Positions 16,200 through 64,000 of a DNA stretch of 64,000 nucleotides are shown here, piece by piece. Positions within the stretch are counted from its first letter, which is position 1. Each line of letters starts with the position of its first letter. A model generated the notes under the pieces. The model did no database searches. It saw nothing but the letters and a program-made list of their open reading frames with translations, and was not told the origin of the DNA. The translations under genes and the position numbers were made by a program. This DNA comes from Nymphaea colorata (taxonomy: Eukaryota > Streptophyta > Magnoliopsida > Nymphaeales > Nymphaeaceae), in NCBI RefSeq assembly GCF_008831285.2, contig NC_045148.1, forward strand, positions 20,205,002 to 20,269,001, written 5' to 3'.

Positions 16200-16201
16200 A
16201 A

Positions 16202-31107: not shown

Positions 31108-31320
31108 GGTTGACTTTGCTATGAGATCATGCTGTTCCAATAACATGTCAATTCCTCTATTAATTTTTTTGAATGGGGAATTTATTATGTACTATTGTGT
31201 GGCATGAAGACATGCAACAAGGCACTGGCCGTCAAATTGTGTTTAACATTAAATTTCTTGGGTTCAGAAGTATATGAGATCGTTATATACCTATACAACA
31301 CAATTAATTGCCTGATGTCA

Positions 31321-31335: not shown

Positions 31336-31831
31336 ATGATATACAGCAGAAGAGGACATCTATGACCTTGTTAGTGAGTGAATTGATAAAATATGACTGG
31401 GAAGCCCAATGGGCAAATTAGAGTTGGAATTCTGAAAGGAGGCTTCTGAAAGTTGCTCGATGATTTGGTCGTCAGAAATGGACGTCACAAGATTAATTAT
31501 TACAAGAAGATTAATTAAATTTTTTGGTCCAGGCCTGAATTTCAACTGTTCAGATGCTGCGTACATGGAGGCTTGGAGGATGTTGAGCAGAGAACATATA
31601 AGAAGGGAGGAAGAAACAACCAACTCAAATTTCCTTCCTCCTCCATTGTTTCCCAATTGTACCCAGAAGAATTCTAGCATTGATTGCACAGTGGTGAGGC
31701 AATGTGGAGAAAAAGGTGAGGCAATGTGGAGAAAAAGCTGCAGCCTCAATTTCTTAATTGTCTTTCTCCTTCCTCTGAGGCTAGTCAACAAGGCTGAGAG
31801 CCCCTATTGGTCTTGCACCGGCAGTTCAAAC

Positions 31832-32277
31832 TGTAACACCCGAGAAGTTTAGTTTCGTAGCGAAGATTGTGAGAAATCTTCAAGGGCTTTTAAAGGGAGG
31901 CTTTAATGAGATGATTGTCCTGGTTCCTAGCCTTTTTAAGATTGGAACCGAAACTGCTAGAGAGCGGGTTGGGATCCGTCAAACCAGGGGCCCGAGCCCG
32001 GGAGTGGGTCGGGTTGTTATAGTGGTATCAGAACCGGTTCAACACTCGGACCTGGGGTCCCACACGAGCGGACGCGTGTACCTTAAAAGGGGTGGATTGT
32101 AACACACCAAAAGTTTAGTCTCGTATCAAAGATTGTGAGGGATCTTCAAGGGCTTTTAAAGGGAAGATGATTGTCCTGGTTCCTAGCCTTTTTAAGATTG
32201 GAACTGAAACTGCTAGAGGGCGGGTTGGGATCCGTCGAACCAGGGGCCCGAGCCCGAGAGTGGGTCAGGTTGTTATA
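31832..32277 (+). mobile_element. TRIM-1: terminal-repeat retrotransposon in miniature
   Basis: 446 bases in CRK-E exon 1 with a perfect duplication CAAAC (31827-31831, 32278-32282). LTRs are 31832-32021 and 32098-32277, TGTAACAC to TGTTATA. The 76-base interior begins GTGGTATCAGAACCGG (primer site) and ends AAAAGGGGTGGAT (polypurine tract). It has no coding capacity, so it depends on proteins of another element. LTRs differ at roughly a dozen sites and by a 9-base gap, so insertion is not recent. CRK text joins cleanly across it (CTGSSN | HAPSSTFGHNLQ). Confidence 0.95.
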
Positions 32278-32705
32278 CAAACCACGCGCCGAGCAGCACC
32301 TTCGGCCATAACCTGCAGTAAGCGCTAGCCTCTCTAGTGGCCAACATTTCTGTCACTGGCTTTTACAATGCCACCGTGGGCAACAGCCCTGACCACGTCA
32401 TTGCCATTTTCCAATGTCGAGGTGGCATCGATGTCGAAGCTTGCCAGGTCTGTGTCTCTGATGCAGCCTTCCAGGTCACCCTGCGGTGCCCCAGCAACAG
32501 ATCAGCTGTTATTATCTTCCCAATCTGCATCGTCTACTTCCATGACGGCAACTTCACCGTGCGTCAAGCATTTATGCATTTATCCACCCAGAGCCCTCGG
32601 GACATCTCTGACCAACAAAGGTTCAAGCCCATGCTCCCCCTCTTCTTCTACAAGCTGCTTGTTTCAGCCACCACCAATCCCTCGGGCTGCTTGTTCTGGG
32701 GTGAC

Positions 32706-33046
32706 TGTTCAAGAGAGCCCACTTTGAATTACAAGATTGAATTGCTAATTAAGATTGAAATTAATATTGCCTTTAATATTCAATCAATCTTTCAGAAAGT
32801 AACCACCCTCTGGGCTAAGGGAAAACCTATAAGGCAGCACGATACATGTCCAGCTATTCTTTGATCTTGGGTAACATGTTGATTGCCCTAAATCAGAGCT
32901 TCATACAAGCAAACCCATAAACATACTTATTCCTCTTCATCTCTATCTGCTTCAAATGCTGCTTCTTGAGCGAGATGCCATGTGAGAATCTGCTGCGCAA
33001 GCGAAGGGCTGAACATAGGTGACGTTTTACTGCTGTAAATCCATCA
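32706..33046 (+). repeat. 5' LTR of Copia-C
   Basis: 341 bases. Shares long phrases with 41180-41575, for example 'aagattgaaattaatattgc' and 'ttctttgatcttgg'. It ends ATCCATCA. Divergence is much greater than between the Copia-A LTRs, so this is an older insertion. Confidence 0.88.
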
Positions 33047-33696
33047 GTCAGAGCCTTACTTGTTGAACTCCAGTAAGTGAAATTCGACTACTGTGGTGCC
33101 TGAGCAGGTGCCTGAGCAGATTATACTACCTGTGAATGCATGTGTGTCGTCTGTGCATCATGCCTGCATTCTTTTCAGATCTATTTTCCAAAAATAAAGC
33201 ATGCTAGACTAAACTGAGTTGAAGCATGATAGTCATGATTGGGTTTGGAATTCTCTGTTTTCTATAGAATGTCGTCTTTTTTTTTCTCTTTGTGTCTGCG
33301 AGAGACCAGAGAACGACAGAGAGCAGAACTTGCTCTGCTCGATAAACAAGAGAATACTAAGGGAAAGAGGGAAGAATAAGGGACTTTACATGGAGAAATT
33401 AACTCTGCTCCCTCTTCCGTTGGACCCCAAATGACTGGTTTCTTAATCCTCGACCTCTCTGCTCCAGCCTCCTTCTGCCGACTAGCGTTCTGTTTCTTCA
33501 TTGCCTTCCCTGTACAGGGACACACAGGTCAGTCTATGCGAGCAGACACGCAAGAACACGGACTACACGCAAGCACACGGACTACCCCGTTCGGTTATCT
33601 CTTCTAGCAGAGACCCAAAAACCCTAGCAGAAGTATGAGAGTTGCTTCAGTCTGTGCGGCCAAAGACCCTCTTTCGCACCTTTTGTTTTGCCCATC

Positions 33697-33960
33697 AAGG
33701 ACCTTGCCCGGAACGGTTCCCGGGTACTCGACTATCATATCCCCGCTTCCCTCGAAGTAGTTCGCGTAGTTCAGGAGATGCGGCTCTCCTTGCTCCTTGC
33801 TGTATGGAGCTAGCGCGCCCAAGAGGTGCTTGATCATCATGTCCTTTTGTGGAACAAGCTCCGGCGGGTTGTTCTGAATGTACCTCGACTCCCCAATGAG
33901 GTTAGAGAGAAGGGTGACGAATGACTCCCCATCGAGCACGCCCAACTCCTCTTTCAGAGA
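33697..33960 (-). pseudogene. Captured fragment of an acetylornithine deacetylase (ArgE-like) gene
   Basis: About 88 codons, uninterrupted: SLKEELGVLDGESFVTLLSN, LIGESRYIQNNPPELVPQ, then MIVEYPGTVPGKVL. This resembles the N-terminal part of plant acetylornithine deacetylase, the M20-family enzyme of arginine/ornithine synthesis that removes acetate from N-acetylornithine. It ends after 'PGKVL', before the metal-binding His/Asp residues, so no activity is possible. No ATG lies in frame directly upstream; the GC-richer DNA to about 34300 may be captured 5' leader. The fragment lies inside Copia-C, antisense to it, between the 5' LTR and R3. Either Copia-C acquired it or another element carried it in. 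Confidence 0.82.
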
Positions 33961-35035
33961 CCCACCCTTTTGTCCTTTGACAAAGAGGAAAGGATGAACT
34001 CTCTGGTCGGGAGACGCGGAGGAGATTGCCCAATTTCAATCTGAACTGGTTGCAGGAGGGACGAAATCGCTGAAGTGGAGTTGTGAGAAGGCCTCAGGTG
34101 TTCTCTGCTCTCGTCAGCGGAAGCTTCACCTGGCTCTCTCGCCTGAAGACCTCTTCTTATTCCTCATGGTGGCGGTGGAAAGGAACGAGCAGAGGCGGCG
34201 CCAGAGGCGCGGCGGGAGAATACTAGCAAAGGCAGAGGTTTGGCGAGAGAGAGACGAGAGGATAGAGAAATCGTGCAAAAAAATGAGGAAGGAAAACGGT
34301 CGAACTGAATTTATACTCAAAATCCAAAATTATGAAATTAGTCCACTTTTTTGTCAATTTTTTAAAAGGCTATCAAATTTATGGAAAATTAAAACCGGCT
34401 TTTGCTGAAAATTTTTTCGAAGCTTGCGAAAGTTAATTTCAGAGTTATTATAAATTGCTGTAAAAGGATTCTGAAAATTTGTTATGCAATTTCGGTGAAA
34501 AACCGAGATATTATGTACAATTTCAGATAGATACCTTCAATCTGATTGAAAATTATAGAAAAAAGGTTTTAAAAATAACTTGAATATGATGAAAAGGAAT
34601 ATCTAAAATTTAATATTGAGTTTTCACATGTGATAGTTTAGAATGCTATTGAAGATCTCTTGATGTGTTATTTGTTTTTGTTACTTTTCATGTATTATTG
34701 TTTTATATTTGTTATAAAAATTAATTTAGAAATGACTTCAAGAATGGAAGCCTTAGAATTGACTAAGACCGAAAAACCAAATGGTTAACAACATATATGC
34801 CTATGCAATTTTGTTATTATGTGGGTGCATGACTCCATGATGGTTTAGACCTTGTGTTTCTAACTAACTAAAATCTTATTTGGATATGGATATTATATTG
34901 AAACATATTCATGTTGAATTTGATTTTGGATCCTCTTTATTTGTTTAGATATATAACAATTCTATTAGTGACATCATTATGTTTGGATTCAAATTGGTAT
35001 GATCTGAATCTAGATAACCATCTGAATTGGTGCTT

Positions 35036-35187
35036 TGGATCTAATTGTTACATAAGATTCATATTTGTATTCAGTTGAGATCATGACATATTCATATCTG
35101 AATTGGTTTTGGAACTAATTGTTACACAAGATTCATATTTGTATTCAGTTGAGATCATGACATATTCATATCTGAATTGGTTTAGAT
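35036..35187. repeat. Two tandem units of about 76 bases
   Basis: Both copies contain 'aagattcatatttgtattca' and 'gagatcatgacatattcata' and differ at a few bases. Local duplication in the Copia-C filler. Confidence 0.9.
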
Positions 35188-36393
35188 ATTGGTTAAAAAT
35201 CTGTATCCTAATTATGTTGGTTCAAATATATGTTATTATACTTGCCTTACAGATATTCATCCGTCATTTTGGTTCCATGTTGATATTATGCATGACCAAA
35301 ATTTTATTTTATGTATCCATTAGTTGTTGAATTTTGGATCTCACAGTAAACGTTGTATTTTTTGGAGATTTGACTCGTTTATACCTTTTGCACAAAATCA
35401 AGATCTTGTTTGTACTAGATCTAAACATATTGCGATATGCATTGATTTTTAGATCAAATGACTTTACGAGTTGTACATTTTCTATAAGGCCCACGATTTT
35501 CTTTCCTTTTTTTAATTATTGAAAACGTTAATATGGGGATAAATTATAAATGGTAGATTAAATGATTGTTAAAAATAGCTGAAACTGTTAACTATATCAT
35601 TAAGGGGGAGGTTATGAAAAGAAATGAATGGGTTGCAAGTATATACCTGGCTGCTTGTAGTAAGTGAAATTAGTAGTAAGTGAAATTATTAAAGGAAACG
35701 AGAGATGATTGAGGGCAACTGAGAAGCCTTCCTCAAAAATCTTGTATGGGGGTGGTGCTGGCCATATATTGGCCTTATTTGACCCCATATTGCAACATTT
35801 TAGATTCCAATTCCTGCAGCCATAGTGATTAGGGTTCTAGCAACTAGAAATTAGGGAAAAATGAGAGCTAACCCATGTTTTCCTGTGTTTTGGGGTGAAG
35901 ATCTAGAGCAAAGCGTGACTGGTTTACGTGCTTCTCATCCGCATCTTGGAGGATCAAAGGAGCGAAGGAACAATGGGTTGAAACGGGGGACTGCAGAGTT
36001 GGAGTGACAGCCCTACAAGGCAACGGAATCAGCTACAACCTAGAGCAATAAGGTATGAGAATGTTCGGTTATGAGTGCAGCATGTAGCCCTTGTACCTTT
36101 GTGGCTTAGATATGTATATATATGTGCATGTTATAGTACTAGATCTATGTGTTTACCTGCCTATATATGAATTGATCTATGAAGTATGTCAGGCTGGAGA
36201 CAATTCCTAGCCCTAGGACCATGCTATCTATCCACAAGATTCATACTAAAAGAAAATCCAAGGAGACCACGTGCTGGTGCATGAACACTTGCAGTACTTA
36301 TATAAATCATTTAGTTTTCCTCTATGACAAATGAAATATGTAGTGAGGTAAGGAGACTTATCTAGGCAGCAAGCCTAGGAATGAACTTAAGCT

Positions 36394-37105
36394 TCCAGCG
36401 AACGGCGTTGTCAGCTCCGGTGTCGGAAGATGTCGAGTAAGGGCGTGTTGGATTCACCGCTTCTGGAGATTCTGCCTGTAAAATTTCATAATTTTTGGAG
36501 CAGCCGATAAAAAGATATTGATTTTTGAATGACTGCGTGTTGCTGGAGTGCTTTCTACGATGGAAGATTCGAAACTACGTCGGATTCCAGCGACCGGCAC
36601 TGTCAACTCTTGTGTCGAAAACTATCGAATAAGGACTCATTGGATTCATCTGCTTCTAAATATTATTTTTGTAAAATTTCATAATTTTTGGGTGAGCGGT
36701 TGCGGAGATATGGATTTTTGATTGACCGCCTATCACAGGAATACTTCCCTGTGAAACAAGAAACTGAACCAGATTCCGGCGACTGGCGCTGTCAGCTCCG
36801 GTGTCGGAAATATTGAGTAAGGGCTTGTTGGATTCATCAGCTTCTAAAGATTACTTCTACAAAATTTCATAATTTTTGGATAAGCGGTTGAGGAGATACA
36901 AATTTTTGAATGACTACCTGTTGCTAAAGTGCTTTCCATGACAGCTGAAGAACCAGCAACTTCTGGCAACTGGCGTTGCCAGCTCTGATGTCAAGTAAGG
37001 GCTCATTGGAATTGTCTGCCTCTGAAGATTCTACCAGTACATTTTAAGAAAATCCAATGAAAAGATATGAATTTTTGAGTGACTACCTCTCGCTGGAGTG
37101 CTTTC
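36394..37105. repeat. Four diverged tandem units of about 190 bases inside R3
   Basis: Units begin near 36394, 36586, 36775 and 36962 (periods 192, 189, 187) with 'tccagcgaacgg'-like text. Each later has 'attggattca'- and 'aaatttcataatttttgg'-like text. Divergence between units indicates an old amplification. Confidence 0.85.
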
Positions 37106-37530
37106 TGCCATGGTTGAAGAACCAGCGGCAGAACAGTTGTATCCTGTGTTATCCTCGTCAAATTCAGCTGGTGAGCAGGTTTGAGGATTTGATCCTAAGT
37201 CCCTTGGGGTCCCTCAGACCAAATTTCGAAACATTTGGAGCTGTGGGTGAAGTTTGGCGAATTTTACAAGAGTCGCTACCCTACATTGAGAGTCCTAAAT
37301 TTACGACGGTTGATGGCAGACACAAGAATGGTGGAGATTAACCAATGTATATTGTATAAAAATATATAAATATATATATATACACAGATATGAGGTGTAT
37401 TTGATACCAGTGGATACGCATAGTCATGAATTGATAACGGACATTAAATAAATAAGAAGTTGATTATTGATACCTGACACATATGTTAAAGTTGTTATCC
37501 CTAGTTTTTGGGAGTTGGAAGTGGCCAGAT

Positions 37531-37698
37531 CATGAGAGTGGAGCCCAAGGTTGGCTTTAGTGGAAACTACTAAACTTTCTCTAGTAATGGTAAACCCCAC
37601 ATTGAATGCATATGTCATGAGAGTGGAGCCCAAGGTTGGCTTTAGTGGAATTGACTAAACTTTCTCTAGTAATGGTAAACCCCACATTGAATGCATAG
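37531..37698. repeat. Two tandem units of about 84 bases inside R3
   Basis: Copies begin 'catgagagtggagcccaagg' near 37531 and 37615 and share 'aaactttctctagtaatggt'. Nearly identical, so more recent than the 190-base array. Confidence 0.9.
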
Positions 37699-40600
37699 AT
37701 GAAACGTGGACTATGTTTTATGCAATGGTACATCCGAGTGCGAGTATGAGTTTTGGTCCAGTGGTTGGTTCCGTCCCGGGAGGTAGTGGTGTGCATGAGC
37801 TTACTGCAGTCGCACACTTCTCCGTTCGCACTGAATGGCCCATAGGGTATTGGGCAGCACAAGGGTCCGTGATTTTGTTATGCTTTTGATTGGAGAGCGA
37901 GGTGTCTCCTGGTCCCTCGACCCGGGTGCCTAGAGGGGCCGGTCCATCACTTCAGGTAGCACCGGTGGTTCGACCTTGCTACTGCAGCGGCGATCTGGGA
38001 TATCTCATGAGCCTTCACTACAGGTTACCCTCGATCAGTTGGATCGTCTGGTGAAGATATGTTCTGTGCTACCTCTGAGTTGTGCCCACAGGGTTCTCTG
38101 CTGTTGGCTCGTCACAATGACCATGACCATTGTTATGATAGACCACCGTTGGAATTCTATGAATATTTGGAGGTTACGTACACCTCGTTCATGATAATCT
38201 AACAAAATTCTAAGGTGCATTAAGGATTGATGACTTATGGATGTTGGCCATAGAGTCGTCTTATGAATTTGTTTGGCATGGTTATATATTTACTTTGTCG
38301 GACTATGTTTTACTCATGGCTGAATATTTTCATACTCAGAGGAAATCTGACCCTTCTTCATATCTCTACAGGGAGTTCTTGAGTGATCGTTGCTACAGGA
38401 TTGACGTCCTCAGACCTTGTGATGGACTGGCATTGGCAATCTAGACACTATGTCGAGTCTGAGATTTGTGGATACTTTAATTGTTTGGTCTAAATGTTTT
38501 TTGTTGAGTCAAAGAGGGTGTCTCCTAAAACAATGTTAGATGTTTGATTGGCATTTGATTTGTTTTTTGTTTTGGTCATTGCTCATGTTTTTTTGGAGTA
38601 AGACTCATGTTGCTTCCGCTATTATTTATTAAAAAGAAAAAAAAATTGGTGTCAAAACTTGGGTCATGATAATTTCTAAGTGAGTAGCAATAGAGTGCTA
38701 AGAGATGACTTTCTTTTGCTCTTTATGAAAGAATATCCTAAGACAAAGATTACATTATTGTATGTTTAACATAGTTAAAAGGAATGATTATATTACTGTA
38801 TGTTAAGAGGTGTAAATCAACACTCTTAAACATGATGAGATCCATATGACATTGTGCACGGTTCATGATAGATTTGGATCCAAGCTAACCTGTTTGGATC
38901 ATTGGCTCCAAATACCCACACTTACATTGAATCCAATATATCATCATGTTTGTCCTTTTGCCTGCAGTTGTAAGGTAATACTCTTAAGCATGATAAAAGT
39001 TATATTAATGAAATATTTTATTTGAAGATCTATTGTACTAAAAGTTCTAGTACATAAAAATTTTATTTGCTCTTATTAGAGATGACTACGGGTATGAATT
39101 TAGATTTGCACCATATTAAAAGTAAGAAAAGGAAAAATCTTTGGTGGTGACTTAAGAGAACTAGATTGCCTTTTGGGACGAGATATTTGTTATCTTTTCT
39201 TATTGTTGTGTTTGGATCTATATTGATATGATCCGAATTTCAATATTTGAACTGATGAAATCCACATTACATAAAGTTTAGCTTCAGATCTAAATTGACT
39301 TGTTATGGATAGGTGGGAAAAATTCATATCTTGTTTGCTTTAGTTCTAATATAAGTTATCATGTTTGCCTTTGGATCTAATCAGATTGTAATCTTTGTTG
39401 CTCTTCTAGATTCAAATATCATTCTAAAGAACTATTGAATAAAGCTTCATTTGCTTCTCTTTCTTAGGAAAATAAATTTGTTTTAATGCATGCTCAAGAG
39501 ATGTAATATAACACTCTTGAACTAAAATTCATATTGGCAAGAATGCATTTATTTGAAGCTTTATAGCACTAAAGTGCTAGTACATGATAACTTGATTTTC
39601 TAAATAGAGAAATGAGTTAGCATTGATCCAAATATGGTTGTTGAATTGTATTGTATAATATTTCTATGAAAATCATGTGCTTTAAATTCATATTAGTTGT
39701 ACTGTGGACATTACTAGTCTGGATCTATGCTAATATAATATGGATCTTAAAATTCATGTAGCTTTTGGAATTGGATCTATTGATTGTTTGAGATCCACCT
39801 TACATGCAGCTTTGATTCAGATTTGAATATATATTTGGATATATGGTTAAACATCTATATCTTGTTTGTATTAGATCCAAACATGTTAAGTTATGCGGTT
39901 ATTTGTGGATCCAAATATGTTAGTATGCTACTAAGCAAGTTCTTGTCTGAGAATGAATTTGATTTCAATATTTGTCATGAGGTGTAAGATAACACCCGTG
40001 AATATAATAAGATCTACACTAACTAGATCCATATTGATATCTTTAGAGATATATAATGCATGTTAAGTTTATATCTAGAAGTTGAATAACATGTGACTAA
40101 ATGCATATGTATTGAATACCCAAATGAAGGTAGGGTATATGATGTTTTATGCATGAGATTGAGGTGTTCAAATAATAACACCGAAGACAATGATCCAGTG
40201 GGAGATCATAATCGATCTAATGGATGATATGATTTATTCAAAAGGTCAGTCTGGCAATGAACTGACTGGAGAATAGTTTGGTAATGAACCAACTGAACAT
40301 GATTCGTCTAAGGATTAGTCTGGTAATAAACTAACTGAAGAACAATTTGGTAATGAACCAAGTGAGCATGATTCATATGAAGATCAGTCTGATAATGAAC
40401 CGACTGGGCATTAAGTCCATTGATCATCTTGTGTATTGATTTATGGATCAATTAGGGAAATAACCAACTGAGTATAATTTTCTATTCTTCAGACATTGAT
40501 AATAGTCGCGAAAGTGAATAACTCCTACATGCATTTGTCGGTGGAGCTATGTATTGACCTTGATGAGTTAAATGAAATTCTTTTCTATAAGTGGGTATAT

Positions 40601-41179
40601 TAATGAAAACTGTACAAGAAGAAAAGTGCTTGAATGAGCGAGTATGAGCTAATTCCTCATTCTGTTAAATAGTCATAATAAAAATTAGGCATTGCTAATC
40701 AAATTGATGACTATGTAAATATTTGAAAAGTGGGAGCAGACTTAAATATACCATTTGCTATGTTGGAAAACAAATAAGTGTTTTGTTATATAATTATGTA
40801 TTGCATGAATTTAGAATGAAAGTTTTGGAACTCTTGTTGTTCAAATAGTTAAGTAATTGTGGAAAACAATAAAAGGAAAATATATCATTTACTCTCACTG
40901 TATACTAGTTTGTGTGTTGGACTTGATACAAGCTTTACAATTTGACTTGTCATTATACACTGAAAAAGTCTAGGTTGGCATTATTTTATGGCAGTTAAGT
41001 GTTTTCAGATATATTTGAAAGGTTGTGATGGAAAATCATTGAATGGAAAACTTCGTTACAAACCTTGAACAAAATTCAAGTTACGATGAACAAACTAATA
41101 AGAAAAACCACATAACTAAAAGATAAGAAAACCTACACATAGTGGAACCAAACTGGCGGTCTCATGGCCAAGTAGAAAA

Positions 41180-41575
41180 TGTTGGATAGTATTCCTGAGC
41201 CCTATCCTTCACCTCGTAACAGCAAGGGGGCCCACTTGCAGTTACAAAATTAAATTGCAAAACTGTTTTCATTATTTAAGATTGAAATTAATATTGCCTT
41301 TAATATTCAATCAATCTCTCATAGAAAGTAACCGCTTGTTGGGTTAAGGGAAAAGCTATGAGGCAACACTATATATGCCCAACTATTCTTTGATCTTGGA
41401 TAACATGTTGATCACCCTAAATCGGAGCCTCATAGAAGCAAACCCGTAAACATACTTCTTCCTCTTCTTCTCTATCTGTTTCATATGCTGCTTTTTGAGC
41501 GAGATGTCATGTGAGAATCTGTTGTGCAAGTGAAGGGCTGAACATAGGTAACGTTCTGCCGCTGTAAATCCATCA
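41180..41575 (+). repeat. 3' LTR of Copia-C
   Basis: 396 bases, begins TGTTGGATAGTATTCC after a weak polypurine tract (aagtagaaaa) and ends ATCCATCA. It resembles the start of the Copia-B LTR at 22227. Confidence 0.88.
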
Positions 41576-41726
41576 GCGACAAGTTCAAGTACACCCGAAA
41601 CTTTGACTATCTATGGCATTGCTCAGTGCGTTCAGTCAATGTCCCCAAGGCGCTGCAGATCTTGCTTAGAGATTGCCTTTGGCCAAATTCTTAGGGATGA
41701 TGGCGGTTCCATGGGTGTTTTAGTTT

Positions 41727-44615
41727 TGTCACGACCCAAGTTTTTGACACCAATTTTTTTATTATAATAATAACGAAAGCAACATTGAGTCATGACCAAA
41801 ACCAAATCAAATATACTGTATTAAAAAGACATTGATTTATTTCAACAATAAATCACTTGGACTTAGTCAACAAATGTAACCACAAAGCCCAAAACCGACG
41901 CAGTGTCCAGATTACCAATGTCCATCCATCACAAGACTGAGGATGTCGATCAAGTAGCCACAAACTTTCAAGAACTACATGTAGAGATAGAAGGAAGGGT
42001 CAAAATTCTTCTAAGTATGGAAGAATCTAGCCATGAATGGAACATGACCCAACAAAGTAATATTTGATCTCGTCAAACAAATACGTACGAGACCTTATGG
42101 TCAACAGCTATAAGTCCCCAAATCTTAATGCACATTAGAGTTACGTCTCATTATAAAAAACGAGGTGTACATAACCTCCAAATATTCGTCGACTTCCAAC
42201 CGTGGTCTATTATAATAATGTCATGGTCATTGTGCTAGGCAACAACAGAAAACCCCGTGGAAACAACTCACAGGTAACAAAGAACATATCTTCACCAGGA
42301 GATCCAACCACATCGAGGGTAACCTGTAGTGAAGCCTCCTGAGATATGCCAAATCATCGCTGCAGCAGCAAGGTCCAACCACCGGTGTTACCCGAAGTGG
42401 TAGACCAGCCCCTCTAGGCACTTGGGCTGAGGAACCAGGAGACACCTCGTTTTCCAACAAAAACAAAACAAAATCCCAAACCCTTGTGCCGCCCAATACC
42501 TTGTGGGCCCTCCTCCAGTGCAGACGGAGAAGTGTGCGGCTACAGTGAGGTCACGTGCACCACTACCTCCTGGGACGGAGCCAACCACTGGGCAGAAACT
42601 GATAGCCATACTCGCATGTACCGTTGCATACACAATCCACGTTTCATCTACGCATTCAAAAGTGAAGATTTATCGTTACTAGACAATCTATTACCTCTCA
42701 CGGAAACCGACCTTAGCCTGGTTTCCAAGACAAAACCAATAAGGCATTTTCTAACTTCATTAAATGGCAATAGAGCAAAGTCGAATAGACATGAAACAAC
42801 ACAAGGAGTAATATAATATAATCATCCTTCAGAAGCAAGAGAATTATATTTTAAATTCTTAGAAGGTGACTTTCGTCCTCTAATTTTTTACTTTATTTTC
42901 AGAACCCTTTGTTTGAAATTTTAAACAAAACTAAGGGCATCAAGCAGCAAGAAAACATAACATTTCATTTTTACATTCAAATTACAAACAAATTTATAAA
43001 AACCCCCTTTTAGCAATTTTTAAGAACTTGGAGGGTACTACTTTGCACTTTCGTATGAAATCTCCTGTTTTTGCTGAAATTAACTTTTCCAAGCATCTTT
43101 CTGAAAAAAGCTTTTAGCAAAAACATTGCGGTGTGAATTTATAAAAATTATAACAGCTTTTTTTAGAAATTCTCTAATAATATGGATCCTTTCTGAAATT
43201 TTTGAAATGGATACAAATTCGATCAAACCCTAGCCCTCTTCTCATTTTCTCGCTGGGTTTTCTCTCTCCTCTCTAGAGCCCTTCCTCGTCTTCTTGTTTC
43301 GCCCGACGGTGGCTTCCACCAACCTTCAACAACCAAAACCAGAGAAAAACGGGGCCAGAGGGAGAGATCGTCTTCCTCCCGCGAGCTCTGACGCTAGGGT
43401 TCCATGCCACTGTGCCACCGACCGACCGACGCCTCCAACCACCGCCGCCTCTTCCCCTGCTCTCATTCATTCAGCACTGTCATTTTGCTGCGACGGGGAT
43501 GAACCACAAGCCAAGAGGAACGGCAGGAGGAGGACGATGTGTTCCACCTTTACCCAAGTCGCCTCTCTGCCACCAGCGTGAGGAAGATGGCTGGTTTTCT
43601 AGTCGATCGGGTGACGGCTTCTACTCGTTGGTAAAAACCTATCATCTTTCCTTCCTTCCCTCAGATTTGGGTGTTGATTTTAAGCTTACTGTATGTCGAG
43701 CAGAGTCGGCCTTGCCCTCTGCCGGTGACAGTCTGGATTGCTCTTTTTTTTTTCTGTAGTTGGTTTGAATTCTCTAACACAACTCTTATTTCATATATGC
43801 ATGCTCTGTTCTAGGGTTGACTCTAGTCTCGGTTTTCTCACAAATAGAATAACAAAAGAAAATAAGGAGAATCAACTTTAATATAGGCACCAGAGAGTTT
43901 CAACACCCATCCAAGACTAACATGCTTCACACTTCAAATCAGAATCTAGCATGCTTTATACCTAAGAAATCAGAGATACTAGAACCAAGAGCATGAAGTC
44001 TCATTCCAACATACAACACCTCACACGTCTATTTCTATCTAGGCATGTAAATACATAAATTCACATGCATATCTATCTCTAAGCAATAAAAAGTACAAGG
44101 GCTTCATGATACATTCATAGCCGAATATTTCCATACCTTTCAAATCGGAGATAAATTCCCGTCAGCCACCTCTATGCCTCTGGTTCTTTCCCAGCAGCCA
44201 CCAACTTCGATCTTCTCCAAGAAGAAAGCAGAAATGAGGACCTTTCTCTCACTTTCTCTCTCTTTCTCTCAATTTCTCTGTTGTTGGACGTTCACCTCTA
44301 TGGCTGCAGCAAAAAGAGTGATTATTTGTTGTAAAACAGGGTTAAATAGACCCCTTTTCAATCCTCCCAAAACTGGCATACGAGTTTTGCAATCTCTTTC
44401 TCAAGGAAAGAAAATGACCTGTCCGTTTTCTTTCTCCTTTCCTTTAATATTTTCAGTTAGTAAATCATTCATTTCTTTCTATAACTGTTCTTTTTATGAT
44501 GAGATTGACAGTTTCAATTATATTTAACAGCCCTTTAAATCTACCGTTTATAATTCCTTCCCATATTAATGTTTTCCATAATTAAGGAAAAAGAAAGAAA
44601 ATCATGGGCCTTACA
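41727..44615 (+). mobile_element. R2: R-family element in CRK-E exon 1
   Basis: 2889 bases, TGTCACGACCC to GGGCCTTACA, with perfect target duplication AGTTT (41722-41726, 44616-44620). Joining the flanks restores the CRK frame exactly (SMGVLV | YHNVKCILKF), which fixes both ends. It matches R1 from end to end. No gag-pol, primer site or polypurine tract seen. The region near 43200-43750 has GC-rich short frames on both strands that I do not trust as genes. Confidence 0.88.
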
Positions 44616-46203
44616 AGTTTACCATAACGTCAAGTGCATTCTAAAATTCAGAACCTTTCCCATTTTCGTCCCCCCACCCCACAAGATTGCTCCTAGCAGA
44701 GCCATTTCCGTCTCTTCTAATTGCTCCCCAACAGCATCTAGCAACAAGGTTGGCAGCCCCCTTCACAGAAACCTCAAGGCTCTTTTCTCTTATTTTAGAG
44801 TGTGTGCACCTCTCTCGGGCTTCTACAGTTATACTGTGGGACTAGGCTCCAGCCAAGTCTATGGCCAAGCCTTGTGCCGAGACGACATCCCTGATGACGT
44901 TTGTTGGGAGTGCATTGCCCTGGCTTCTTCCAAAATCCAAGAATTATGCCCTAATAGTAGAAGGGGAATCATATGGCTCGACCACTGCCAGTTGCGCTAC
45001 TCTGACAAGAACTTCTCTGGCAAGGTAGATGTCTATGACAGGGCATGCCAACCAGCAGTGAACAATGCATCAAATCCTTCGAACTTCTATCAGAGTTTGA
45101 GAATCCTTGTAGCCAACCTGACCTCACTGGTGACGCAGAGTTCTCCTAATCGCTTCTTCACTAAGGGTGTCTCTGTCCTTGAGGAAGCAGAGAGGATCTA
45201 CGCTCTGGTGCAGTGCGTGAAAGATATACATGCAGACCAATGTGGGTGGTGCTTACAGAATGCCAGCTCCGATATTGCAGGATGCTTTAATAGAAAACAA
45301 AGCGGTCGCATCCTCAGGGGAAGCTGCAACTTGCCTTTTGGAGTGTGGCCTTTCTTCTCCAGCGATCCTACTGTGATATCACTTCCGAAGCCCAGTCACA
45401 GTGAGTCCACTCTGTGGCATCACATGCTTAAACAGATCTAAAATCCTAACCGTAAGCACCATTTTGGACAGTAGTGATGTAGAGAGACTGGTTCTTTTCT
45501 GTAGCTCATTGTGTTTCCTTCATATTTTTGTATTCTTTTCTGTTTGCAAAAGTAGGAAGTGATCCCTCCAGCAGGTTTTTGGGGTGTTTGCATTTAAGTG
45601 TAGATGCAACTTGGCGGATGACCAAATCTGCCCTCATCTGTTGCCAACAAGAGCAAGCTTGGAATTCTAATTAGTTGTTCCACAAACACCTCGATGAATG
45701 TCTGTTTGGTAAAGTGGACTGGTCTCCCATTCTCTTCACCTGTCCTTTGTCCTGTTGAAGCAACTAACTTTTTTGCTGTTGAATTTGGAATACCTATACT
45801 TCATCATGGCAGCAGGGTGTCAGGTCTTTCTGTTTTATTAGCTTATCAAATTGTATTTTTCTGCTTCCTTTTTACAGCTTCTTTACGTTCATTTTGTCCA
45901 TAATTAATTGATGGCAAGGACTTCCCAAAGTTGTCGGCTTTGTTTTGCTTTGGTTACTGAATTTCTCTGATTTGCTGACAATACCTTGTTCTACTTTCTC
46001 AAAAAAAGAAGAAAACAATCATACCCAACATAGAAGCTGCTGCTAGATGCTCCTGTGCCTTATGGGACCTTTACTTTCTACAAATTTTTGGACAACAATT
46101 GTACGTTGTAGTTGTGTTTAGTCCACATTGGACATCGAACAATTTGTAAACAACCACAAAGTATGAAAAACATAACAATTATCGTTTCAAAACAGGGCGT
46201 AAG

Positions 46204-46643
46204 TGTAATGCCCCAAATGTTTAGTCTCATATCGAACATTGTGGGGAATTTCAAGGGTTTATAAAGAGGGTCATTGATGAGAAGATTGCCCTGGTTCCTA
46301 GCCTTTTTCTGGTTAGGGCCGAAACTGCTAAAGGCGGGTTGGGATCCGTCGAATCAGGGGCCCGAGCCCGGGAGTGGGTCGGGTTGTTATAGTGGTATTA
46401 GAGCCGCTTTCAACACTCGGACCTTGGGTCCCACACACCTTAAGGGGGCTGGATTGTAATGCCTCAAATGTTTAGTCTCGTATCGAACATTGTGGAGAAT
46501 TTCAGGGGTTTATAAAGGGGGTCATTGATGAGAAGATTGTCATGGTTTCTAGCCTTTTTCTGGTTAAGGCTGAAACTGCTAGGGGGCGGGTTGGGATCCG
46601 TCGAATCAGGGGCCCGAGCCCGGGAGTGGGTCGGGTTGCTATA
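46204..46643 (+). mobile_element. TRIM-2: second TRIM, inside the transmembrane exon of CRK-E
   Basis: 440 bases; LTRs 46204-46391 and 46455-46643 (TGTAATG to TATA). The interior starts GTGGTATTAGAGCC (primer site with one change) and ends GGGGGCTGGAT (polypurine tract). Flanks GTAAG (46199-46203) and ATAAG (46644-46648) are the duplication. Removing it leaves exon 2 at exactly 105 bases, the length in CRK-F and CRK-G, encoding IYVVICFVGVLLLTTACVF. Same family as TRIM-1. Confidence 0.93.
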
Positions 46644-48249
46644 ATAAGCACTGGTGGATTTATGTTGTCATATGCTTTGTTGGTGTGCTACTGCTAACAA
46701 CAGCGTGTGTGTTTTGCTTAGTTTGGAGATGAAACCAGCATCCAGGTAAAGTTCATGTCCCTTTGAAAGGCTGTATAAGCCATCGATCTCACAAAAAAAT
46801 ATTCATATCTTTGATCGTCTATTTCATGTCGTCTTAGAGAATCAAAAACAGAAAGAAGCAACTTCAATGGATTCAGAAAAAGTAAAAGAGAATGAGGCAA
46901 CCTATAATTTACCACAATTCAGCCTGAGGACAGTGGGAGGTGCTACGGATAAATTTTCAAGATCAAATAAGCTTGGAGAAGGTGCTTATGGCCCTGTCCT
47001 CAAGGTAATTAGAGTAAATATTAACTCTTCTCTGATTCATCCTCCTATTATTTATTATTAATGAGAGAAAACTACCATACAGTTCTCCCTGTCACTTATT
47101 TGTAACAAAATGGTCGATTTATGAGTTCTTTAATTATACAGTTCAAAGGAGTTTAGTGTCTCAACGAACTGAAATTTTGTTCTCTTCTTTGATCTACGAG
47201 GGGAAGCTCCAAAAGACAGTCTCTTAGTAACACCCATTAAACTTTAGCTCTATAATCTAACAATTGTAAAGAAACCGTGTGACCTGGATGATATTTGAAA
47301 AATAGAAAGATGAATAATCTTTTGAAAATTAAGGGGAAAAAATTGATCACTGAGTTGAAATTTCTCTACAACGAGGAGCGTATGTTCGGTGATATGTCAC
47401 ATATGTTCAAGGTGTGAATGCAGGAATGAGTTGCTCACACTCACATCCATATATGCATATAATTGTCTATAAACAGTAAACCAATATTTTTTTTCTTTCT
47501 AAAAAGACCATGTTACTCAGGTTTGGAGAGTATTTACTCTTATTAGAATCACAAATGTATAAGAATTGGTGATGTTTTCCTTCCGAGGGAAACTTCCTGG
47601 TGGACAGGAAGTAGCTGTCAAGAGGCTGTCTGGTCGCACTGGGCAAGGCTTAAAGGAGTTAGGAATGAAGTTGAGTTGATAGCCAAAATTCAACACACAA
47701 ACCTGGTTAGGCTTATTGGTTTCTGCTTGGAAAATGATGAGATGATACTCATATATGAATATATGCCCAACAAAAGCCTTGATTTCATCCTTGAAGGTTA
47801 GTAGTTTTATTTGTTTAACATTCTTACACACACACACACACACACGCGAATCCAAGTGTGGATTTCTTGCTCAAAGCCTTCAAGGAGTATGCACAAAGAG
47901 GTCCGCATTAGTCGAACATACAGGTCCTTTTTCTGCATGTCGAGAAGATGTCAGCAGCTGGTATGCCTTAAAAGCTGCCTCCCCAGAGCATGAATTCATG
48001 TGCTTTCAGAAATAGCTTCAAGTTTTCCTACATAGATTACAAACTTAATGTCATGTACATGGCAGTAGAAATAACATTTTCCCATAAACCATGTGAACAA
48101 GGTATGAGACATTTGGAAGCTCCTTGAGCCCAAGATAAAATGTACTCTAATATTTCGAAAATTCAAATGTTATTGGAGGGTATGGGACATATATCATATA
48201 TCTTATGTCATCTCACATGGAACTGGACTCTTTTGAAACTTTGCAAGGG

Positions 48250-48290
48250 GGGAGAGAAAGAGAGAGAGAGAGAGAAAGAGAGAGGTTAGT
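48250..48290. repeat. (GA)n tract before CRK-E exon 5
   Basis: An interrupted GA repeat ahead of the exon-5 acceptor. Longer pure tracts occupy the same place in CRK-F (57012-57056) and CRK-G (63743-63797), so the tract is inherited from the common ancestor gene. Confidence 0.9.
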
Positions 48291-48719
48291 CAACTTAAAG
48301 TTATTAAACAATACAATGTGCAGATCCGGAAAGCCGTGCTTCATTGGATTGGGAGAAGAGGTTCAATATCACCATAGGAATTGCAAGGGGAATGCTTTAT
48401 CTTCACCAAGATCCTCGACTTAACGTCATTCGTCGGGATCTCAAAGCTTGCAACGTGCTGCTAGACGAGCAACTGAATCTTAAAATTTCTGATTTCGGAT
48501 TGGCAAGTATCTTCAATAGAGTTTTGGGGTAGGCAACCACCAGTATCATTGTTGGTACTTTGTAAGTACAATGACAAAACAAATACTGATTGCTGATCAA
48601 CAAGTCTTTATAATCACCATGTGTCTTCATTGTAAATTTTCATAATTCCATGGTTTTCTGGCCAACTTACTCCGTCTACATGGAGTGAAACATTGTAATT
48701 TTACTTATTAACTGGTGGC

Positions 48720-48814
48720 CTATGTCACCAGAGTGCGGGGTGCGGGTGCCCGTGCCGGTGCGAGTGCCGGCGCGGCACATCTCAAAAAATTTAGGTGCGG
48801 CAGTGCGGGAAGAC

Positions 48815-48849
<35 letters not shown>

Positions 48850-49570
48850 TTATAATAATAATATATATGACAAAATTATCTCTAAACCATAAAATTATTA
48901 AATATCAAAATCAAAATTACAATTTTCCCCATTCCTTTCTTTCTTAATAAGGAGGTTAGCTGTTTAGGTTCGGCGTGGAAGGGACGGGGCGAAGCGCTCC
49001 GTTGTTCATTAACGAGCATTATTCTTATAATAATTTTGGTTTTAGATATGTCGAATTGGATCAAGATCCAAATCCAGACCCGAACTCTATCACTGCCCGC
49101 GGGTTCCCCTTCCTCTTCTTCCTCTTCCTCGTCTTCTTCTCTAATCTCTATCTCCCACTTAGTTGCCCTCTCTCAGGTGAGCATCCACACAGAGAACAGA
49201 GAAGAAGAAGGTGGAGGAAAGAGCAGTGGCGGTAGCGGCGGTGCAGCGCGGTGGCGATTTGGGTAATTAGGTCTTCGCTCGAGCCCTCTCTTCCTCCCGT
49301 CCTCACCTCTCTTCCTCCCTCTCCCATCTCTTTCCCCCTCCTCTCTTCCTCCCGTCCTCACCTCTCTTCCTCCCTCTCCCATCTCTTTCCCCCTCGCTCT
49401 GGCCCTCTCTTCCTCCCGTCCTCACCTCTCTTCCTCTCTTCCTCCCGTCCACACCTTACCCATCCTCTCTTCCTCCCGTCCACACCTCTCTTCCTCCTTA
49501 CTCTCCCTCTCTGTTTCCCCCAAATCCTGTCCATTTCTCCCCCAGGTACTGCCGTACCCTGGTGACATTG
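48720..49570. mobile_element. M2: inverted-repeat element in an intron of CRK-E
   Basis: 851 bases. The left end CTATGTCACCAGAGTGCGG is mirrored by the right end CCGTACCCTGGTGACATTG with few mismatches. Inside are repeated 'ggtgcggg' words, an ATT run (48825-48845) and a pyrimidine-rich block with a roughly 56-base tandem unit (49280-49460). Same plan as M1. It lies between kinase exons 5 and 6, where CRK-F has no such insert. I found no clear target duplication. No transposase. Confidence 0.65.
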
Positions 49571-51300
49571 CTAGAGAAAAAACGCAACAAGTAGTCTTTT
49601 TTATTTTTTATGTCAGAGAAACTTACAAAATTTGGTAATCACATGTTGTAAGAAAACAAGAATGCAAGTCCAAAATTCTTTTCTTACTGATCGTCAGCAA
49701 TGAAGGTGAACTGCATAATTGTCAGGCTTTTTATTTTAGTCGGTACGGTCTTCTGAATGACAGTTCAGTAAAGCGACTGCCTTTTACGTTTATAAGAATC
49801 AACTGATGCATTTCTTTTGCTTCTTCCAGAGGATATATGGCTCCAGGCTCCAGAGTATGCCATGAATGGCCTGTATTCTACAAAATCTGATGTCTACAGC
49901 TTTGGTATTTTATTGTTGGAAATCATTGGCGGCCAACTGGAAGTACGTTTTCTAGCAACCCATTAGGGTCCTGGTCTTGTTGAGCATGTAAGTCTCTTAA
50001 TCTCCCCCAAAAAAGATCACACCAAATGGCATTTTTCATCTGACAACTACATACAAAAAAACTCTTTAATCTGTCAAAAAGCAGTCTCCAGTGGTGTTCA
50101 TGAGAAGATGGCTATTGGCTACTGATATCATAAGCGTTCACAAAGTTTTTCAATTTCTCCATGTCTGATACTTGCATTTGCAACTTCATTTGCATATGGA
50201 TTTCATGGAGTTGTTAAGCTAAGTGGAAACCCTTCCTGGTCTTGTTGGCCACCTAGAAAATTGAACATCCGTATTATAGCTTCACCGTTTGACAGCTTTA
50301 ATGACCATCTGTATCTATAACTCAACATGTGACCTGAACTTTGATTTGCACTTCAAAAACTACAAATAGATTGGTGATATGACGATGGGCATTTAAATTT
50401 TGAAATTTTCTCCAAATCAACTTAGTATTATTCTTAAGTTCTCGCATCTAAGGAGGTACAATCAGCTCCCTTTCAACTGCACGCATCAGCAAGTGTGAAA
50501 CCTAAGGTCCGAGTGATGAGCTTGACTTCAATCATAGAATTTATAAATTTTAGAACTGGCAATATAGCCTGTGAGTGTTTAAACTCCTAATAATACAAAA
50601 ATTGTTCTCAAGTCCTTAAATATGGGGTGCTAGAAATTCTACTACTGTACCAACAAAAATATATACATATAACTTCAATTGATATTGGCGAGCAGGCATG
50701 GAGCTTGTGGCGTGAAGGGAAAGGGACAGAGCATCGATCCAGTCCTTAAAGATAGTTCTACTTCAACAAGTGATCAAATGCTAAGGTGTTTGCATATTGC
50801 CTTTCTTTGCATTCAAGAAGATGCTGCAACCAGGCCATCCATGTCCACGGTAGTTCTCATGCTTGGGAACAATTCTTTGGACCTTCCCTTGCCCACACAA
50901 CCTGCACTTATTTTAGAAAAAATTGCAGGATCAAGCCGACCACATTCTTCTGTTGTATGGACTACTGCTTCTAAAAGGACGGCAGAGTGAAAGCAACAAA
51001 AGTTTCACCCAGGATGTATGTGAACATGGAAAACATTCTGCTAATGTACGAAAATCATGCATTGGAGAAGTGAACATATGCCTAATGGAATTTACCTGAT
51101 TCGATATATTTATTACTTCATATATTAGTCTCCAACTGGGAGAGAAACAGATCTCCCTTGGGGTTAATCCCCAGATGTTAATTCCCAACCATATGAAGGA
51201 AGGAGTGGTTTGCACAACATTAGATGTCAAATGAACCGACCTTGTTATACTCAAGCTCAGCTCTTGTAGTAAGTACCCAAGAAAAGCTCATTTTTATGAT

Positions 51301-53571: not shown

Positions 53572-56500
53572 ATGTGCAGAACATGCTGCAGCCTCATTTT
53601 CTTAACTGTCCTTCTTTCTCTGCAACTCGCCGAAATGTCTGAGATCCCCAACTGGTATTGCATTCCGACCCCAACCTACTCGGCGAATAGCACCTTCAGC
53701 CACAACCTGCAGCCAGCACTGGCCTCTGTGGTAGCCAACGCTTCCATCACCAGCTTCTATGATGCCACCGTGGGCAACAGCTCTGAAAAAGCCATTGCCA
53801 TGGGCCAATGTCGAGGTGACCTCGACGGTGAGGCTTGCCAAGTATGCCTCTCCGATGCTGCCACCCAGATCACCCAGCGGTGCCCCGTGAACAGAGTGGC
53901 TATGTTGTTCCTCCAAGGCTGCATCTTGCACCACCATGACGCCAACTTCACATTACCTCAAATATTCGTGAATATAACTCAATCGAGAAATGAACTCATT
54001 CCCGACCCCCAAAGATTCAGGCCGATACTGACTTCCTTCTTCGACAAACAGATCGCTTCCGCCATCATCAACCCTTCAGGCCGCTTATTCTGGGGCGACA
54101 AGTTCAGGTACACTCGGAACTTGACTATATACGGCACCGTGCAGTGCGTTCAGTACCTGTCCCCAAACCGCTGCAAAATTTGCTTAGACATAGTTGTCGA
54201 TCTAATGCTCAAGAGAGTTGCAAATACACAAGCCGCTGTAGCTTACCATAACTTCGAGTGCGTTTTAAGATACGACACCGTTCCCTTTTTCATTCCCCAA
54301 TTACCTCACAAGATTTCTCCAAGCAGCGCCGTCGCAACTAACTGCTCTCCGCCAGCATTGAGCAACAAGGTTGGCAGCCCCTTTCACAGAAATCTCATGG
54401 CTCTACTCTCTTATCTGATAGTGCATGCACCTACCTCTGGCTTCTACAACGATTCCGTGGGCCTGGGCTCCAGCCAAGTATACGGCCAGGCCTTGTGCCG
54501 AGGCGACATCCCTGATGACGTTTGCTGGGAGTGCACAGCCCAGGCTTCCACCAAAATCCAGGAGTTGTGCCCCAGCAGTAGAAGAGCAATCGTATGGCTT
54601 GACCGTTGTCAATTGCGCTACTCTGATGAAAACGTCGCCGGCGTGTTAGATGTTTATAATAAGGCCTGCCAACCAGCAGCGGAGAATGCATCGGATCCAA
54701 CCAGCTTCGATCACAATTTGGGAATTCTCATATCCAACCTGACGTCGCTGGCAACTCAGAGCTCTGTCAATCGCCTTTTTGCTACGGGCGTTTCCGTTCT
54801 TGCGGAATCGAAGAGGATCTACGCTTTGGTGCAATGCATGAGAGATATCTCTGCAGACCAATGTGCGCTGTGCTTGCAGAACGCAAGCTCTGATATTGTG
54901 GGATGTTCTAATGGAAAGCAAGGCGGTCGCATCCTCAGGGGCAGCTGCAGTCTGGCTTTTGGAGTGCACCCCTTCTTTCTCGGCGATCCAACACTATTGC
55001 TTTACCAGCACAAGCATGGTGAGTCCCCACTCTTACTCTGCCGAATCACATCCTTAAAGAGATCTAAATTCCTAACCTTTAACATGTTTTGGTGAAAGAC
55101 TGTCACCATTTTGAGTAGTAATCATGTCGGACCCGTCATTTTTATTGAAAATTGTTTGAAGAAGCAGTTGGTGGCTGTGATGAAGGAACTAGCTTCTTGC
55201 TGTTGAACTTGGCAGACTTGTACTTGATTATGAGAACAGGGTCTCAGGTCAGGTCTGCTCTGTTTTATTAGCTTCTGAAAGTATATATTTCTTTCTATTT
55301 ACCAGCCTCCCCATGTTCGTTTTGGCCTTCGGTACTCGATGGCAAACTAACCTCCCACTATAGTCACCTTGCTTTAGGTTCGTTTTATTGCATTTTTTTC
55401 CAAATCTTCACATTTTCTTCTTCTACTTTCTCTAACAAGAAGAAAACAGTATTTTCCAACTTAGAAGGTACTTTTAGATGCTTCTGTGCATTATAGCCTT
55501 TTCTTTCTATATATTATTGGGTAACAGTTGTGTGCTACAGTTATATCTGGTCCAGATTTGGACATCTAACAATCTGTGAACAACCACAACTCATCATACA
55601 AAAAAAAATCTCCTTTTTTATACAGGTAATAAGCTTTTGGTGATAGTTCTTCTCATCTGCTTAACTGGTGGGCTCCTGCTAGTAGCAGCCTGTGCATTGT
55701 GCTTAGTTCGGAGAAGAATGCAACATCTGGGTAAATGTCATGTGCCTTGAATGCTTATCTAGGTCCTTGTCCAGAAAAAATCTCATAATTTCAATTTCCT
55801 ACTTCATGTCATTTCAGAGAAGCTAAAACAAAAAGAAGCAACCTCAATCGATACTGAGAATGTCGAAGAGAATGAGGAGGCAAACTATGATTTACCGCAG
55901 ATCAGCCTGAGGACAATAGAAGACGCTACGGATAAATTTTCGGAATCAAATAAGCTTGGGGAAGGTGGATATGGTCCTGTCTATAAGGTAATTGGAGTAA
56001 TTGATTTAGTCGATTAATCTTTTTCATTGTCAATGACAGAATTACTTTAAACCTCAGCTCAATTTTCTAGGCGCGCGGCAAGCATTAAACTTGAGCTCTA
56101 TAGTGAAACTGTGTAAGAAAACCTGTGACTTGAACCGTATCTGAAAATTGAAAAAGGTGAACGATTTTAAAAACTAAGGCGAAAAATTAATCCAAATCAA
56201 TTCTTTCTATGATGAGGAGTTCAAGTTCTGATCCTATTTCTGTATTAGAATGACAAATACAACATCATTGGTGATGCTTTCCTACCAGGGCAAGCTTCCT
56301 AATGGACAGGAAGTCGCTATGAAGAGGCTGTCTGGACGGTCTGGGCAAGGTTTGAAGGAATTCAAGAATGAAGTTGAGTTGATAGTCAAACTTCAACATG
56401 TAAACCTGGTTAGGCTCATTGCTTGCTGCTTGGAGAAAGGGGAGAAGATGCTCATTTATGAATATATGCCCAATAAAAGCCTAGATTTCTTCCTTAAGGG

Positions 56501-57008
56501 TTAGTATCTTTCATTCTTTTACCTGAGGTATCTGATTATCAGAAACTGAATCTTTTACTCAATGTCCTTGACGTCTATGGGAAAAAGGTTTTTCTTTGTC
56601 AATGTCGCACCTGCGAGAGAGAAGGTGGGGGGCCAAAGTTCCCTGCTTACGATAGTCTCTTCAGGTTCATAAATTTAGTTGCCTGTGAGTAGTGCAGATT
56701 ATGCTCCGCATTAATAATTGAAAATTCAGTTTCTTTTCTGCATGTCAAGAGAAGCCACCTATTACGCCTTAAAGGCAGCCTCCTCTAAGCACCTCCTCTA
56801 AGCATGAATTCGCATGCTTTCTGAAATAAATTCGAGTTTCTCACACAAATTACAAAGTTAATTTATTCTACATGGCAGTTGACGAACATTTTCCCGAAAA
56901 GCATGTGCGAAAGGTCTGGAGCATTTGAAAACATCAAAGTTACTTGGTGGGGGACATATAGCTTGCCTTTATCTCGGGTGGAACTGGACTTGTTTGGAAC
57001 TGTACATT

Positions 57009-57059
<51 letters not shown>

Positions 57060-63300: not shown

Positions 63301-63738
63301 CTTGATTTCATCCTAAGGGGTTGGTATTTTGATTTCTTTCACACGGTTACACATACATAGAAAGGGCACGTAAAGTCTGAATGGAGTAGTTTCATGAGGT
63401 TTAGAGATTCGCCGCCTATGAGAACCACATATGGTGGCCTGCAAAATGTACTGAAAATATAGTTTATTTTCTGCATGTCAAGAGATGCCAGTATATCTTG
63501 TGCTTTTAGATGAAATTTTCAAGTTCACCACGCAAATTACAAACTTAATTTCAACTTGGTGGCAGCATATGATCATGTTCGATGAAAACAAGTGAGAAAG
63601 GTATGAAATATTTCGAAGGAGGACCCCGACTAAAGACATAGTTTAGTCAAATTTCGAAAATTCAAGTGCTGCTTGGAAGTATAGGACACATACCTTGTTT
63701 AATCCCACGTCTAGCTATAACTTTTCTGAAACTCTGCA

Positions 63739-63799
<61 letters not shown>

Positions 63800-64000
63800 T
63801 GCTCAAATGAAAGTTATTAAACAATACAATGTGCAGATCCAGAAAGGCGTGCATCGTTGGACTGGGAAAAAAGGTTCAATATCATCATAGGAATTGCAAG
63901 GGGGATGCTTTATCTACACCAAGATTCTCGACTCAACATCATTCATAGGGATCTCAAAGCTAGCAACGTGCTGTTAGACGAACAACTGCATCCTAAGATT
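60322..64000 (+). CDS. CRK-G: four-DUF26 CRK, 3' end outside window
   Basis: Exons 60322-61777, 62245-62349, 62441-62607, 63109-63319 and 63837 to the window edge. Lengths 1456, 105, 167 and 211 keep the same phases as CRK-F, and no stop or frameshift is seen. Signal peptide [20 protein letters not shown]. Four complete DUF26 motifs: [52 protein letters not shown]. Membrane helix [29 protein letters not shown] loop, AVKRL lysine, [11 protein letters not shown], then HRDLKASN before the edge. The 'KLKQHLGEKLKQKE' juxtamembrane segment matches CRK-F. It is probably functional as far as visible; the activation segment and C-lobe are not in the window. As in CRK-F, an in-frame upstream ATG (60241) exists, but the second Met gives the better signal peptide. 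Confidence 0.92.
63743..63797. repeat. (GA)n tract in intron 4 of CRK-G
   Basis: About 55 bases of pure GA, 39 bases before the exon-5 acceptor, at the same place as in CRK-F. Confidence 0.95.

Follow-up and report, generated by a model that had tools for sequence, protein, structure and literature searches.

The 64,000-nucleotide window analysed here (Nymphaea colorata, NC_045148.1, positions 20,205,002 to 20,269,001 of the forward strand; coordinates below count from its first nucleotide) contained plant cysteine-rich receptor-like kinase (CRK) genes arranged as a tandem array. One member, CRK-E (31724..50990, plus strand, from the ATG to the former stop codon), is a dead gene in which three mobile elements, TRIM-1, Copia-C and R2, interrupted exon 1 and a fourth, TRIM-2, interrupted exon 2. 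In BLAST comparisons, the exons and introns of CRK-E were co-linear with those of its neighbours CRK-F and CRK-G, but were split into blocks. An open reading frame (ORF) of CRK-E at 44569–45441 matched PF01657 (DUF26) with an E value of 4e-32, which marks the ectodomain, and the transmembrane exon and the kinase exons followed in the same order as in the neighbours, as determined with co-linear BLAST matches and translations. The kinase was assigned by the protein-kinase motifs HRDLKA and DFG.

Each of the four exonic insertions is mappable to the base. In exon 1, TRIM-1 (31832..32277, 446 bp) was flanked by CAAAC at 31827–31831 and CAAAC at 32278–32282, Copia-C (32706..41575, 8870 bp) by GTGAC at 32701–32705 and GCGAC at 41576–41580, and R2 (41727..44615, 2889 bp) by AGTTT at 41722–41726 and AGTTT at 44616–44620. 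In exon 2, TRIM-2 (46204..46643, 440 bp) was flanked by GTAAG at 46199–46203 and ATAAG at 46644–46648. All four were annotated on the plus strand, and all had TG at the 5' end and CA or TA at the 3' end. The 5-bp duplications were exact at two sites and matched in four of five positions at the other two. Each insertion resembles what an integrase normally leaves behind, with 5 bp of the target duplicated. A fifth element, R3 (35483..38671, minus strand), was nested within Copia-C between TTTTC (35478–35482) and ATTTC (38672–38676); its ends were TA..TA, not TG..CA.

The alignments with the paralogues broke no more than two bases from the insert ends at 32278, 32705, 41576, 44616 and 46642 (with CRK-F) and at 46198 (with CRK-G). 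At the other insert ends, local BLAST matches stopped up to approximately 55 bases short, and the BLAST search with CRK-G gave no match to CRK-E between Copia-C and R2. At a given pair of ends, a 5-bp match is expected by chance with P = 1/1024 if exact, and with P = 16/1024 if at least four of five positions agree. Since all four sites showed such matches where the paralogue alignment breaks, chance was an unreasonable explanation for the duplications and was rejected.

The uninterrupted exons were reconstructed by removing each insert with one copy of its duplication. Exon 1 of CRK-E, which begins with the ATG at 31724 and is bounded by the GTGAGT donor, was then 1457 bp long (CRK-F: 1447 bp, CRK-G: 1456 bp) and aligned with both paralogues across all three junctions. 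Exon 2 measured 105 bp in CRK-E, starting at its AG acceptor, as it did in CRK-F and CRK-G. An earlier inspection of the letters alone, here called the sequence-only reading, had proposed the four exonic cuts, the nesting of R3 and these exon lengths, and had suggested splicing out the inserts for alignment with CRK-F and CRK-G. The cuts were confirmed to the base by element ends, duplications and alignment breaks, the nesting by the flanks of R3, and the lengths by computation. An origin of some inserts as assembly joins, also raised at that time, was rejected as extremely improbable: no evidence in its favour was found, the flanks of all four inserts are contiguous in at least one paralogue, and each insert shows regular element termini between duplicated target bases.

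Besides the exonic insertions, CRK-E carried six small ORF lesions (two nonsense codons and four frameshifts, three of the latter found by script and one by eye) and a change in the catalytic loop, all given on the plus strand. Exon 1 contained a premature TAA at 32319..32321, where CRK-F has CCA and CRK-G has CAA, and a +1 frameshift caused by an additional T. The extra T had been suspected near 41602, and alignment with the paralogues located it at 41602..41604. In the kinase exons, a −1 frameshift at 47656..47670 was followed by the catalytic-loop HRD read as RRD (48431..48439) and by a premature TAG at 48530..48532 (CRK-F: CAG; the CRK-G position lies outside the window). A frame-shifting 7-bp tandem duplication of GGCTCCA (49839..49853) was recognised by eye against CRK-F, as the automatic alignment misplaced the gap. 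The last exon had a −2 frameshift at 50724..50736. Together with the four exonic insertions, these lesions confirmed that the kinase gene is dead, as the sequence-only reading had stated.

A CRK last-exon stub with its 3' flank, located upstream at 27911–28468, was 86.6% identical to CRK-E 50725–51285. It did not have the −2 deletion of CRK-E and was a partial duplicate of the CRK-E lineage. The start of CRK-E (31693–31737) contained an exact 22-bp tandem duplication, which gives two out-of-register ATGs at 31702 and 31724.

The two small elements resembled terminal-repeat retrotransposons in miniature (TRIMs). The long terminal repeats (LTRs) of TRIM-1 (31832–32021 and 32098–32277) were 92.8% identical and enclosed an interior of 76 bp with a primer-site-like stretch, TGGTATCAGAAC, and a purine-rich stretch, AAAAGGGGTGGAT. 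Those of TRIM-2 (46204–46391 and 46455–46643) were 93.1% identical, and its 63-bp interior likewise contained a primer-site-like and a purine-rich stretch. The primer-site and purine-tract names follow the usual form of these motifs. With 440–446 bp, both elements presumably lack coding capacity. They were 79.7% identical to each other, compared with approximately 93% between the LTRs within each element. A single local duplication was therefore rejected, and TRIM-1 and TRIM-2 are separate insertions of related copies. No family was detected in the whole window with Rfam at the gathering score, and hence no Cassandra-type 5S match for the TRIMs.

The left LTR of Copia-C spanned 32706–33046. 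The right LTR ended at 41575, its start being only approximate (~41218), and the pair was 87.1% identical without gaps. The element is 8.9 kb long now and was smaller prior to the insertion of R3. No Pfam match above the cut-off was obtained in nine of its twelve translations (all six frames of the left piece and the three forward frames of the right piece); two weak matches below the cut-off (E = 0.049 and 0.075) were to unrelated families. A tblastn search of Copia-C with the Copia reverse transcriptase (RT) and integrase encoded in the window gave nothing better than E = 4.3. Two patches of Copia-C, 40184–40365 and 41007–41206, matched 20222–20402 and 22051–22253, which flank the RT (20576–21942) of a Copia remnant, and the stretch expected to hold the RT measured approximately 640 bp instead of 1650 bp. 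Of the features of Ty1/Copia elements, the LTR pair and the 5-bp duplication were thus present, and an integrase upstream of the RT was not detected in the frames scanned. Because no Copia domain was detected in these frames and the kinship is limited to two patches of about 200 bp, Copia-C is at most Copia-derived, which qualifies the name given to it in the sequence-only reading.

R2 had TG..CA ends, no LTR pair and no internal direct repeat of at least 30 bases. R3 had tandem repeats in its interior, but its ends did not form an LTR pair. Scans of all six frames of R2 and of the three forward frames of R3 revealed no coding domain. Both belonged to one family with a third member, R1 (23432–26090), which had TG..CA ends and the near-duplication TACGC/TACTC; R3 was opposite in orientation to R2. 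R2 may be a solo LTR or a non-autonomous derivative of an LTR element; the window contained no parental element with two R-type LTRs by which to tell these apart. To the left of R3, Copia-C contained two short stretches that matched R2 in antisense (33194–33266 and 34443–34578), perhaps a further, more decayed nested R copy. The GC-rich insert M2 (48722..49568, no strand assigned) lay in an intron, as had been noted before. Its ends were defined by imperfect terminal inverted repeats, ATGTCACCAGAGTGCGG and CCGTACCCTGGTGACAT, and inspection by eye revealed no convincing target duplication.

To place the loss of function in time, substitution rates were estimated from 651 codons, drawn from exons 1, 3 and 4 and a portion of exon 5 after gapped codons and one stop codon had been dropped; exon 2 and exons 6–7 (CRK-G ends with the window) were excluded. 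The CRK-E branch had a nonsynonymous rate (dN) of 0.117 and a synonymous rate (dS) of 0.294. The dN/dS ratio of 0.40 (CRK-F: 0.26, CRK-G: 0.37) indicates that constraint probably acted on CRK-E along most of its branch. The period free of constraint was 0.038 substitutions per site in the pooled estimate (95% interval −0.027 to 0.087), 0.019 when stratified (−0.079 to 0.078), 0.063 in the kinase exons (0.019 to 0.103) and 0.023 from the two nonsense codons among 819 codons (0.003 to 0.082).

Dating each insertion from its LTR pair had been proposed in the sequence-only reading; with half the K80 distance as the age, this was achieved for TRIM-1, TRIM-2 and Copia-C and was impossible for R2 and R3, which have no LTR pair. 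The distances were 0.145–0.152 for Copia-C, 0.077 for TRIM-1 and 0.074 for TRIM-2, giving ages of 0.076 (with an assumed standard error of 0.012), 0.038 and 0.037, respectively. With these ages, the probability that death preceded Copia-C was 0.09 (pooled), 0.04 (stratified), 0.30 (kinase exons) and 0.03 (nonsense). The corresponding values were 0.47, 0.31, 0.84 and 0.28 for TRIM-1 and 0.50, 0.32, 0.86 and 0.30 for TRIM-2. Copia-C was also dated from its 12 transversions alone, which are less affected by methylation, using as yardsticks six choices of fourfold sites or intron part. The ages obtained were 0.069, 0.047, 0.066, 0.070, 0.088 and 0.036, so that four of the six yardsticks put Copia-C at 0.066–0.088. 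Over three clocks and six yardsticks, the probability that death preceded Copia-C ranged from 0.03 to 0.83.

Since its K80 age and four of its six transversion ages are older than all point estimates for when constraint was lost, Copia-C is the strongest individual candidate for the insertion that killed the gene, and the order of events leans towards Copia-C first. This led us to propose that CRK-E was a constrained member of the tandem array, probably killed by Copia-C in exon 1, and then acquired passenger insertions and small lesions. We assign this reading a probability of roughly one half. Purifying selection would have acted on CRK-E through most of its history, until its function was lost, most likely by the insertion of Copia-C, which would have been both the first element and the killer. 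Once selection was gone, TRIM-1, TRIM-2 and R2 could have inserted in the exons and remained as neutral passengers, while R3 would have inserted into Copia-C and small lesions would have built up. That a lone Copia-C insertion killed the constrained kinase, and that the lost selection let further insertions persist in a state preserved enough to order the events, is a tentative claim to which we give slightly less than even odds.

Several observations weigh against this proposal. The dN/dS of CRK-E exceeded those of both CRK-F and CRK-G in just 62% of bootstraps, and the intervals of all ages overlap. Transitions were in excess over transversions in the LTRs of Copia-C (34:12) and of the two TRIMs (10:3 and 12:1), as expected from methylation, which can inflate K80 ages. 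The two remaining transversion yardsticks gave Copia-C an age of just 0.047 and 0.036; combined with the kinase-exon clock, they raise the probability that death is older than Copia-C to as much as 0.68 and 0.83. That clock also gave, with K80 ages, the highest probabilities of death first (0.30 for Copia-C, 0.84–0.86 for the TRIMs). Finally, R2, having no LTR pair, could predate Copia-C.

The sequence-only reading had assumed the opposite order, with the kinase dead before the locus became a landing site. On this view, the TAA, a frameshift, the HRD change or else R2 would have killed the gene, and Copia-C and the rest would have arrived afterwards. Six small ORF lesions are indeed present, and the kinase-exon clock (0.063, 0.019–0.103) is older than both TRIMs at its point estimate, and two of the six transversion yardsticks make Copia-C, too, younger than this clock. 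However, the K80 ages leave death before Copia-C a probability of only 0.03–0.30 over the four clocks, and two nonsense codons in 819 are what approximately 0.023 of neutral time would yield. We consider this order possible but doubtful. A dead gene with four insertions was thus borne out, whereas the sequence of events was not, given the overlapping clock estimates.

According to the sequence-only reading, the locus became a tolerant landing site after the kinase died, while CRK-F and CRK-G stayed clean. CRK-F (53572..58878, plus strand; exon 1 53572–55018, exon 2 55626–55730) had kinase stretches that, as aligned, fell in open frames. CRK-G (60322..64000, plus strand; exon 1 60322–61777, exon 2 62245–62349) is cut by the window end, and its frame was open over the visible part. 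Their exon-1 open frames (53494–55095 and 60241–61839) matched PF01657 at E = 8.8e-61 and 8.9e-60, respectively, with four DUF26 stretches in each exon 1. With the low-complexity filter on, eight element queries gave no match to CRK-F or the visible part of CRK-G; with the filter off, R2 shared only GA-rich repeats with CRK-F and CRK-G. By these searches, CRK-F and the part of CRK-G up to position 64000 were clean as had been claimed. An absence of inserts from the neighbours is expected under purifying selection, so no special tolerance of the CRK-E locus is needed to explain it.

Evidence for clustering of the insertions at CRK-E was weak to null. The four insertion points spanned 2152 spliced bp, for which a scan statistic under uniform landing gave P = 0.03–0.21, with rough counts as inputs (8–12 insertions in 36–38.5 kb of element-free sequence). 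A property of the locus as a landing site was therefore not upheld. It could still be argued that CRK-E was a preferred target, by its chromatin or sequence, with insertions beyond those allowed by relaxed selection. All four insertions within the 2152 bp fell in exons 1 and 2, which account for 1562 bp of a gene that measures 6602 bp once the LTR inserts are taken out and M2 is kept (P ~0.003, post hoc), and a published study reports an enrichment of plant TRIMs within or close to genes (PMC4717578). We regard a preferred target as improbable in view of the scan statistic, the choice of the site for study because of its insertions, and the four duplications (CAAAC, GYGAC, AGTTT and RTAAG), which by eye have no common motif.

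Further Copia sequences were present upstream of CRK-E. An element at 11313–16748 had LTRs with 93% identity, minus-strand RT and integrase ORFs and GAAAA duplications. A minus-strand Copia RT remnant just upstream of the gene (30543–31010; tblastn E = 1.5e-9) overlapped a 49-bp tandem repeat at 30958–31108.

CRK-E, one of the genes of a tandem CRK array, is an ordinary, well-preserved pseudogene interrupted by elements of known types. The locus reveals no new mechanism, yet it is a textbook case in which all events are legible at single-base resolution and open paralogues serve as controls, and it can be used for setting insertion clocks against clocks of gene decay. In the literature searched on TRIMs, CRKs, four-DUF26 proteins and retrotransposon-cut pseudogenes, no description of this locus was found, which says little.

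TRIM-1 and TRIM-2 resembled plant TRIMs in their size of 440–446 bp, direct LTRs of 180–190 bp, interior of 63–76 bp, primer-site-like and purine-rich stretches, 5-bp duplication and genic position. They differed in lying within exons, a minority site, as an average of 2.7% of TRIMs are reported to be recruited as exons (PMC4717578), and had no Rfam match to assign a family. Copia-C shared with Ty1/Copia elements, represented in the window by the remnant at 19087–21942, two patches of RT-flanking sequence, but differed in its shortened RT interval (~640 versus 1650 bp), with RT and integrase undetected in the frames scanned and by tblastn. The R elements were similar to solo LTRs or large non-autonomous derivatives in their length (2.7–3.2 kb), their 5-bp duplications, the TG..CA ends of R1 and R2 and the lack of domains in the frames scanned, whereas R3 deviated with its TA..TA ends. 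As for the host gene, an ectodomain with four DUF26 stretches encoded by one exon is described for 11 of 91 soybean GmCRKs (PMC6237359). The array shares this single-exon ectodomain and its tandem copies with the soybean arrays, and differs from them in that one member here is a heavily interrupted pseudogene.

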